Shown piece by piece: positions 25,149 through 38,146 of a DNA stretch of 41,958 nucleotides; position 1 is the stretch's first letter; each line of letters begins with the position of its first letter. Both the position numbers and the translations under genes were made by a program. Source of the DNA: Patescibacteria group bacterium (GTDB lineage Bacteria > Patescibacteriota > Microgenomatia > UBA1400 > PJMF01); contig JAHIVK010000023.1 in the NCBI GenBank assembly GCA_018816385.1, positions 1 to 41,958 on the forward strand, read 5' to 3'. The notes under the pieces are model-generated. The model saw only the letters and a list, made by a program, of their open reading frames with translations. It had not been told where the DNA came from and made no database searches.

Positions 25149-25183
25149 ACCTAAATCGAAATAAAATAATTTTAGTTTATAAT

Positions 25184-25240
25184 AGACTTTCCGCGAAATA
25201 AAAAACAAGTTAATTATGTTAAAATTTTCGCAGAAAGTCT
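25184..25240. repeat. Short inverted-repeat element (minimal A-box element)
   Basis: AGACTTTCCGCGAAATAAAAA ... AAAATTTTCGCAGAAAGTCT; 9 bp before the secG start. Confidence 0.75.
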
Positions 25241-25249
25241 AATAAGCAT

Positions 25250-25462: not shown

Positions 25463-25559
25463 TAGATCTGTTGCGAAATTAGAAACAAGTTAATAATAGA
25501 CTTGACTCGCAAAATAAAAAACGAGTTAATTATGTTAAGATTTTAATGCGCAAGCTCTA
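25461..25559. repeat. Two consecutive A-boxes with a right arm running into the next CDS
   Basis: AATAGATCTGTTGCGAAATTAGAAACAAGTTAAT then AATAGACTTGACTCGCAAAATAAAAAACGAGTTAATTATG; right arm GATTTTAATGCGCAAGCTCTA overlaps the ATG at 25546. Confidence 0.7.
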
Positions 25560-34630: not shown

Positions 34631-35740
34631 ATGCAAACTAAACTCAGAGATGACTTTCAAACTGCTCTTGATGAAGCTAACCAATTAATTAGTCAGTTGT
34701 CGTCAACCACAGACCTGGAAAATCAAATCAAGGATTTAGAACAAAAAACTCTCCAGCCCAATTTTTGGCAGACAGATGGGGCCCAACCGACTATGAAAAA
34801 GATGTCGGGACTCAAAAATTATCTTGAGGAAGTTGGGTCACTTCAACAAGCTAAAGAAGATGTTCAAGCGGTCTTGGATTTGAGTAGTGCCGATTCAGCA
34901 GATCAGACTCCAGATCAAACTGAGTTAGAAAAAGAGGCCGAATCAGAACTCCGAAAACTGACTAAAATTCTGGCCAAGCTCAAGATTAAGCAATTCCTCA
35001 GCGGACCCTACGATAAACTGGGTGCCATTATCTCGATTCACTCTGGTCAGGGAGGTAGTGAAGCCATGGACTGGGCGGAAATGTTAAGTCGGATGTACAC
35101 TAGATACTTTGAGCGGCAAAACTGGTCATGCAAGTTACTGCATATGTCACCTGGAGAAACAGCCGGCATTAAGGCCGTCGAGTACTTAGTAGAGGCGCCT
35201 TTTGCCTACGGATATCTAAAAAAAGAAAAAGGTACTCACCGCTTGGTCCGCTTAAGCCCCTTCAATGCCGATAGTCTCCGCCAAACTTCGTTTGCTTTGG
35301 TTGAAGTTATTCCTTTAATTGAAGCTGATGATACCAATCTTGAAGTATCTGACTCTGATCTGTCATGGAAGTTTTCCAGGTCGGGTGGAGCTGGTGGCCA
35401 AAATGTCAACAAGGTTAATACTGCAGTTGAGTTAACACATTTACCCACAGGTTTGGTAGTAACTTGTCGAGAAGAACGCAGTCAAGTTCAAAACAAAGAC
35501 AGAGCTTTGCAAAAACTTAAGGGTTTACTGGCTAAACAAGAAGAAACCAAACACCTCCAAGAACTGGCCAAAGAAAAAGGTGTTCATCAACAGGCCAGCT
35601 GGGGTAGTCAAATCAGAAATTACGTGCTACATCCATACAATATGGTGAAAGACACTCGCACCGGTGTGGAAACCAGTGACACTCACGGCGTGCTGGACGG
35701 CGATTTGGACGAATTCATTCAGGCAGAGATACAGATTTAA
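34631..35740 (+). CDS. prfB: Peptide chain release factor 2
   Basis: RSGGAGGQNVNKVNTAVELTHLPTG (GGQ), HRLVRLSPFNADSLRQTSF (SPF, RF2-type). Continuous frame, no in-frame TGA. Confidence 0.95.
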   Translation: MQTKLRDDFQTALDEANQLISQLSSTTDLENQIKDLEQKTLQPNFWQTDGAQPTMKKMSGLKNYLEEVGSLQQAKEDVQAVLDLSSADSADQTPDQTELEKEAESELRKLTKILAKLKIKQFLSGPYDKLGAIISIHSGQGGSEAMDWAEMLSRMYTRYFERQNWSCKLLHMSPGETAGIKAVEYLVEAPFAYGYLKKEKGTHRLVRLSPFNADSLRQTSFALVEVIPLIEADDTNLEVSDSDLSWKFSRSGGAGGQNVNKVNTAVELTHLPTGLVVTCREERSQVQNKDRALQKLKGLLAKQEETKHLQELAKEKGVHQQASWGSQIRNYVLHPYNMVKDTRTGVETSDTHGVLDGDLDEFIQAEIQI

Positions 35741-35863
35741 CGAACAGTTACGTTATTTTCCCCCTGTTTTGTCTGATATATTTTGATATAATAATTGTAT
35801 ACCTCAACTGCAAAACCTTATAAAGGGTGTGATAAAATAATCTGGAGCAACGAAAGGATAAAA

Positions 35864-36211
35864 ATGACAAAAGAAGGTGTTTCCACTTCTGAACTCGAGG
35901 GTATATGTCAATCGATTATTGGTTTGATGGACTCTGATCGTGGAGTTTCATATCTAAGTCAAATTTTACATGACATATTATGTCAAATTGATTCTCACCC
36001 TGGCTCACTCGAAACAAAACGTAAAGTACTAGAGCTGATGGCTAAAAAAATACAAGTAAGAATTGGTGATATTCTTCGCGAAATCGACTTTTTGATAGTG
36101 GAAGAATCCCAGAAAAAAGGCGATGATATGTATCTACTAGCGAAACTAAATGTGCTTGCAACTCAATTGAATGGCATATACGGGGCTATAAATATACGTT
36201 TGCATAAGTAA
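35864..36211 (+). CDS. Hypothetical helical protein
   Basis: MTKEGVSTSELEGICQSIIGLMDSDRG...; GAAAGG upstream of ATG at 35864; the track start 35795 is less likely. Confidence 0.6.
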   Translation: MTKEGVSTSELEGICQSIIGLMDSDRGVSYLSQILHDILCQIDSHPGSLETKRKVLELMAKKIQVRIGDILREIDFLIVEESQKKGDDMYLLAKLNVLATQLNGIYGAINIRLHK

Positions 36212-36267: not shown

Positions 36268-36298
36268 AGTTGTCAAATAGTGAATAAACTCGATATAC
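36268..36298. repeat. 31-bp direct repeat, copy 1
   Basis: AGTTGTCAAATAGTGAATAAACTCGATATAC; 30/31 identical to 37477-37507. Confidence 0.95.
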
Positions 36299-36316
36299 CA
36301 TACAGTCAGTATTTGT

Positions 36317-37240
36317 TTACTGAGGCTCAACTACAGCCAATTTTTTCGATTTAAGTCGTAAGCTCAAAAAAATCATTTTGACATTTGGAACTATATTAGC
36401 CAATAAAATAAATACACCCCCTGCAATTTCCATTCCAGTCGGATACTCTCCAAACACCATTGCTCCAAAGATAAGCGCAAAGAATAATTCGAGCGATAGC
36501 ACGATCGATCCTAATCCAAGATCGAAATTCTTAAAACCAACGAGCAGTAGGTAATTAACAATTACAAGTAATGCCCCAAATAATCCACCAATAATCCAAG
36601 CCGTAGTCGAAATTGATCCTAGATAGCTCAAACTTTGATTGAAGTAACTCATCATAAAACCTGAAATTAATACACCTCCCACTGCTGTGAGTGACACCAA
36701 CACTACCTTGCTTATCTTCCCTGATAAATCTTTTCTAAACCCATTGGCAGAGCCATCAAGTACTCCACTGATCACACCTGCAATTAAACCAAGGTTAATA
36801 CTTCTATTGGTAAAAGGAAAGGCAAATAGCGCAATGCCAATCAACACCAACGTAAGCGATATCCACTTCTCAGCATTAAGTTTTTCATGAAAGAAGAAAA
36901 TACCCACCACCCAACCAGTCAAGATCGTGCCAACATAAAAAGCAAAAGTGGCCAAAGCTATTTTGGTATTTAGCATAGCCACGTTATAGGCAATCACTGC
37001 CAAAGGGACGAGCAAAATATAGAAAAATAGGTTAAGTTTTTTTACTTTACTCCAGTTAATATTCTTGAGTTGCCTTGTGAAGATGACAATCAATATCGCA
37101 AAAATAAAGGCGAATCCATTTCTCAACACCACCTGCTGGTAGATTGACATTTCCTGATTAAGCAACCTGATCCAGATGCCAAATGTACCAAAGGCCAGAG
37201 CTGAAAAGAATAAGGCTGAGAAACCAAGGGCTTTGTTCAT
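36317..37240 (-). CDS. EamA/DMT-superfamily transporter
   Basis: About 10 hydrophobic segments, FGTFGIWIRLLNQEMSIYQQVVLRNGFAF, FFHEKLNAEKWISLTLVLIGIALF, FGEYPTGMEIAGGVFILLAN. Confidence 0.9.
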   Translation of the reverse strand: MNKALGFSALFFSALAFGTFGIWIRLLNQEMSIYQQVVLRNGFAFIFAILIVIFTRQLKNINWSKVKKLNLFFYILLVPLAVIAYNVAMLNTKIALATFAFYVGTILTGWVVGIFFFHEKLNAEKWISLTLVLIGIALFAFPFTNRSINLGLIAGVISGVLDGSANGFRKDLSGKISKVVLVSLTAVGGVLISGFMMSYFNQSLSYLGSISTTAWIIGGLFGALLVIVNYLLLVGFKNFDLGLGSIVLSLELFFALIFGAMVFGEYPTGMEIAGGVFILLANIVPNVKMIFLSLRLKSKKLAVVEPQ

Positions 37241-37476
37241 ACTTTATTTACCACTGAGCACAAACGCACTAACCTCTGCTGCCATTTCAGCTTCATGACT
37301 GCTACCCGCCTATTGTTTGATGGCACAAAATAGCCGTGCAGATAAAGACCATCTGAGGTTGACACATGAAGAAGAGAATTGTTGTGCATCTTATCCTTTA
37401 TTGAGCGATTATATACGTAATTTTTCTTCTATCAATAATAATATCTAATGATTAGTATCTGTTTCTATACTTTGTT

Positions 37477-37507
37477 AGTTGTCAAATAGTGAATAAACTC
37501 GTTATAC
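37477..37507. repeat. 31-bp direct repeat, copy 2, containing a promoter for the 37517 gene
   Basis: AGTTGTCAAATAGTGAATAAACTCGTTATAC; TTGTCA-18-TATACT, then 8 nt to ATG at 37517. Confidence 0.95.
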
Positions 37508-37516
37508 TACTCAGAT

Positions 37517-38146
37517 ATGCATAAACTTGATCTCACTCAACAAGATTCAGCTCAATCTGACTTTAGCCAGCCAGAACCCATTCAACCTGCACCCACAGAG
37601 GAAATGGTAACTCAAACCCCTCAAACTAGTTCACCCACCCTTGACGAAACTGGCAGGGGGGCAGATAATCACTCTTCTCTGCACCCAATTGAATCAAACA
37701 CTATGAAACAAGCTCCTAAAATAATTACCCTGGTGGCTATCATTTTAGCCGTATCTGCTGGCGTAGCTACAGGCTTTGGTTCATATCGCCTGTCCCATCA
37801 GGTCGGTGATAGTGCCAGTTTTGGTGGCAAAAATATAGAGCAGGTGGCAACCGGTCAAGTTAATAATGGGGATGTCTTTGGAGCGCAAGATATTTCACTG
37901 TTTAAAGATCAGGCTGAAGGCTACTTGGAAAAAGGTGGCATTAATGGTGAGGGCTCTCACAAACTCTTAAGACCAGGTGGCATCTCTCAAACTGTTTATT
38001 TAACCTCTTCAGTCACTGATCTAGACAAACTGACCGATACACAGGTTAGAGTTTGGGGTGAAACCTTCAAAGGTCAACAAGCCGGCTGGCTGATGGATGT
38101 GGGTCGAGTTGAGGTGATTGATACCCAGGCAGAAAAACCCATCTAA
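37517..38146 (+). CDS. Membrane-anchored hypothetical protein
   Basis: Gln/Pro/Thr-rich N-terminus, TM IITLVAIILAVSAGVATGF, C-terminal beta-rich domain; directly upstream of ftsE. Confidence 0.75.
   Translation: MHKLDLTQQDSAQSDFSQPEPIQPAPTEEMVTQTPQTSSPTLDETGRGADNHSSLHPIESNTMKQAPKIITLVAIILAVSAGVATGFGSYRLSHQVGDSASFGGKNIEQVATGQVNNGDVFGAQDISLFKDQAEGYLEKGGINGEGSHKLLRPGGISQTVYLTSSVTDLDKLTDTQVRVWGETFKGQQAGWLMDVGRVEVIDTQAEKPI

Follow-up and report, generated by a model that had tools for sequence, protein, structure and literature searches.

Two members of the IS1634 family, IS1634 and IS1549, are reported to make direct repeats of between 8 and 514 bp (PMC2266710). Here we describe a gene of the EamA/DMT transporter family (PF00892) in the genome of a Patescibacteria group bacterium that resembles these elements in being one unit with a direct repeat of some tens of bases on either side, but differs from them in that the enclosed block has neither a transposase nor terminal inverted repeats. 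As a single accessory gene set amid conserved neighbours and lacking mobile-element genes, the arrangement is also like the illegitimate or homology-facilitated insertion of accessory genes. A duplication of 31 bp, as found here, exceeds the microhomology that is usually reported for that kind of insertion.

Results

The window, which is the whole 41,958-nt stretch of DNA that was analysed, contains a 31-bp direct repeat with copies at 36268-36298 and 37477-37507 that are identical at 30 of 31 positions, the single mismatch being A at 36293 against T at 37502 and the longest exact run being 25 bp. Both copies had been reported by the initial annotation as bracketing a minus-strand EamA gene, and repeat and gene alike were recovered in our analysis. 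Allowing up to three mismatches, a search of the window returned these two copies and nothing else (100 shuffles gave none), and the same search of the genome (1.0 Mb in 77 contigs, 97.5% complete) again found only two, in agreement with BLAST of the region. No third copy was found at another promoter anywhere in the genome. With just two copies the repeat does not form a dispersed promoter family, which the initial annotation had named as a finding that would refute its reading. The similarity does not extend past 31 bp, as the sequences flanking each copy are unrelated to one another and align at chance level, and no RNA families were found in the region. A survey of 866 kb, or 87% of the genome, detected 12 direct repeats that are low in copy number and comparable in strength, with their copies 250-4000 bp apart and several of them apparently within coding repeats, whereas the shuffled genome gave none. 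The 31-bp repeat pair is real and uncommon.

The right copy (37477..37507, plus strand) was proposed earlier to be the TTGTCA-18-TATACT promoter of the gene at 37517, and both a consensus scan and the genome's -10 statistics agree. TTGTCA starts at 37479 and is followed by an 18-nt spacer and by TATACT, whose end at 37508 leaves 8 nt to the ATG at 37517. Among 435 genes of this genome with free upstream space, the positions of -10-like hexamers show a sharp peak at 6-9 nt from the start codon, with counts of 21, 17, 13 and 8 against a background of about 3; leaderless transcripts have this geometry, and many genes here therefore look leaderless. The gene in question (37517..38146, plus strand), which we call o209, encodes a conserved 209-aa protein present in 51 of 52 genomes, and its start codon is supported by first residues, M-x-K-[LI]-D/N-L, that are shared by many relatives. 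A -10-like hexamer lies no more than 20 nt from the o209 start in 17 of 23 upstream regions (our genome and 22 relatives with a placeable start); letter shuffles of the same regions gave a mean of 4.7 and a maximum of 11. The right copy has the layout expected of a leaderless sigma-70-type promoter, in which 6-9 nt separate the -10 box from the start codon and the -35 box lies another 16-18 nt upstream. Given this geometry, the genome-wide peak and the orthologous upstream regions, we infer, with good support, that the right copy is the leaderless promoter of o209. We found nothing directly relevant in the literature on leaderless promoters in Patescibacteria.

The left copy (36268..36298, plus strand), located 18 bp past the EamA stop codon, contains TTGTCA and TATAC, and the next base, beyond the end of the repeat, makes this TATACC, so that the final T of the -10 box is missing. 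No gene start lies at a suitable distance downstream. Because its -10 box is one base short and it faces no gene, the left copy is best taken as a copied piece of promoter, probably weak or dead. It is quite improbable that both copies are selected regulatory sites, whether operators of a single regulator or, on the left, an antisense promoter damping EamA. A promoter should depend on its hexamers alone, yet the two copies also have nearly the same spacer, and this would fit selection; however, fairly recent copying also predicts an identical spacer, the left copy has lost the last base of its -10 box, and other promoters in the genome carry no third copy.

Between the copies lies the EamA gene itself (36317..37240, minus strand), whose 307-aa product matches PF00892 in two stretches (E=9e-15, 55.6 bits against a curated cut-off of 28.2). 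By consensus scan, the unit likely has its own promoter, TTGATA-16-TATAAT (37408..37435, minus strand, 11 of 12 consensus positions), facing left. Upstream of EamA, a short reading frame (37247..37389, minus strand) begins with AAAGGA-ATG and continues into a frame-shifted tail, and is possibly a gene remnant. Inspection by eye had suggested an alpha/beta-hydrolase remnant; this was rejected, as the frame matched nothing in Pfam, NCBIfam, PDB or genome sequences, and its plasmid matches at E=2 are chance and lend the hydrolase no support. The block holds EamA and this one short frame and nothing more. No transposase or integrase was found within it, no terminal inverted repeats at its ends (p=0.85) and no IS1634 end motif, and when foreign composition was looked for, the block proved ordinary for the genome.

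These ends bear on whether the block could be a worn mobile element, an IS1634-like or other long-repeat transposon or a recombinase cassette that carried EamA as cargo and has lost its ends. The long repeats reported for IS1634 and IS1549 would suit such an origin, and an IS1634-family element surrounded by a 51-bp direct repeat is present in the same genome (C27, L126:238-1910). That genuine copy, however, retains perfect 12-bp inverted ends, whereas the EamA block has no inverted repeats, no end motif and no transposase, and its EamA gene is unmatched in plasmid records and without a close relative in viral contigs. We consider this origin improbable; the IS1634 copy shows that long duplications occur here without tying the EamA block to it.

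EamA homologues were found in only 17 of the 52 genomes, those of the relatives lying at places other than this one, and class-wide at E<=1e-35 in only 5 of 374 genomes, our own included. The nearest relative, from another order, is 46% identical, the closest ones fall at 44-46%, and no close relatives were found among genome contigs. The initial annotation had proposed setting a phylogeny of EamA against the genome: the EamA tree does not follow taxonomy, and the genomes of the family are not grouped together. Since the subfamily is patchy and its best relative lies in another order, the EamA unit was likely acquired, and we take it to be a mobile accessory gene in the sense that it has changed places over time. 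Because the composition of the block is ordinary, by that measure it is no recent foreign arrival; it may date far back, or its source may have been a similar genome.

The locus was compared with relatives from other genera and families, the nearest named ones being Microgenomates-type Patescibacteria, at 23 loci in which prfB is visible. In 19 of these, prfB is directly followed by o209 in the same direction, usually with ftsE-ftsX next. Here prfB (34631..35740, plus strand), assigned as peptide chain release factor 2 by its PCRF and RF-1 domains and by gene order, is separated from o209 by about 1.8 kb of extra DNA, comprising EamA and a small gene (35795..36211, plus strand; ATG likely at 35864 after AAAGGA) with no relative in the 51 other genomes. 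As prfB adjoins o209 in most relatives, both genes are extra here, which supports the earlier proposal that the EamA segment is an insertion; the small gene lies outside the repeats. In two other loci (L004 and L016, from G013 and G026) o209 is inverted between prfB and ftsE, and the inverted o209 of L016 has its own TATACT ahead of its start. The remaining two have other genes inserted at the junction, an ImmA/IrrE-like protein assigned by its AHELAH motif in L023 and an opposite-strand frame of 270 aa in L025, and neither insert is bracketed by a repeat pair.

Insertion at this junction thus needs no repeat, and the promoter piece could have been duplicated apart from EamA, after its arrival, through a repair process such as template switching or ectopic gene conversion. 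The unrelated flanks of the two copies are in keeping with such an independent duplication. On the other hand, each copy closely adjoins one end of the EamA unit, the left 18 bp past the stop codon and the right just past the promoter region, a placement that random duplication would not favour, and we regard this explanation as possible but doubtful.

Other single genes of this genome are also enclosed by long direct repeats, as is evident from the IS1634-family element and from a DUF4143 AAA ATPase gene (C5, L104:1755-3094) that, like EamA, is bracketed by a direct repeat, in this case of 44 bp (41/44). LAGLIDADG endonuclease genes also lie between direct repeats, of 34 bp at L118:3937-4773 and of 21 bp at L109:18270-19187.

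A separate repeat is abundant genome-wide, a miniature element about 165 bp long, or 51-60 bp in its short form, that has TAGACTTGTCGCGAAATAAG/CTTATTTCGCGACAAGTCTA as its terminal inverted repeats. Allowing up to three mismatches, 155 of its ends were counted in 866 kb, and contigs break inside it. Its many sites include 25182-25243, 10031 and 28586 in the window, as well as L128:6820-6984 and L144:7400-7564. It resembles a MITE, and its targets are possibly TA. Ends of the element are found directly before gene starts at L175:17296-17345, L109:10410-10470 and 25508-25545 of the window, one example being GAGTTAATTATG, whose ATG is the start, and for this reason the element may provide genes with a promoter or start region. 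Derivation of the 31-bp repeat from the TAGACTTGTCGCGAAATAAG element was considered and rejected, as their alignment is no better than that of shuffles.

Discussion

The history that we favour, and think reasonably probable, is that the EamA unit was inserted between prfB and o209 with duplication of 31 bp of promoter, in the manner of a target-site duplication. An accessory unit with its own leftward promoter would have entered in or at the leaderless promoter of o209, and 31 bp of that promoter would have ended up on both sides of the insert, much as a long duplicated target site would. Of the two, the right copy would still drive o209, and the left copy, minus the last base of its -10 box, would be a leftover. 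Possible routes are fill-in of a staggered break, illegitimate recombination with DNA that the cell had taken up, or transposition by an enzyme supplied in trans. We infer that the insertion of EamA and the duplication of the promoter were one event, so that the 30/31 repeat flanking the block would be a target copy. The two copies bracketing the gene, the conserved order without EamA, the patchy occurrence of EamA, the -10 hexamers of this genome and of the o209 upstream regions, and the long repeats around other single genes speak for this history; against it stand the lack of a transposase, integrase or inverted ends in the block, its ordinary composition, the inserts that relatives carry at this junction without a bracketing repeat pair and the position of the 35795 gene outside the repeats.

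The initial annotation had further suggested that excision between the repeats would restore a promoter. A crossover between the two copies is predicted to leave prfB, the 35795 gene, a single repeat and o209. The joined repeat would take its right end from the right copy, and o209 would therefore retain TATACT; it would have a promoter with or without the block, and excision would not act as a switch for it. The block, moreover, has no recombinase gene and no inverted ends, and the -10 box of the left copy is incomplete. Excision would only lose EamA, and the idea of a switch is weak. Spontaneous loss across 25 bp of perfect identity is possible and expected to be rare. We think it highly improbable that EamA and the DUF4143 ATPase gene on another contig reflect an undescribed route by which the genome gains and loses single accessory genes, with duplications of 31-44 bp, no mobile-element genes and the possibility of precise loss.

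The EamA case looks like ordinary gene acquisition and not like a genetic switch. It would be a clear addition of a single gene to a streamlined Patescibacteria genome that left the promoter of the neighbouring gene unbroken. By themselves, neither this addition nor the finding on leaderless promoters alters current understanding. The apparent leaderless geometry of many promoters in this genome should help in annotating such genomes.
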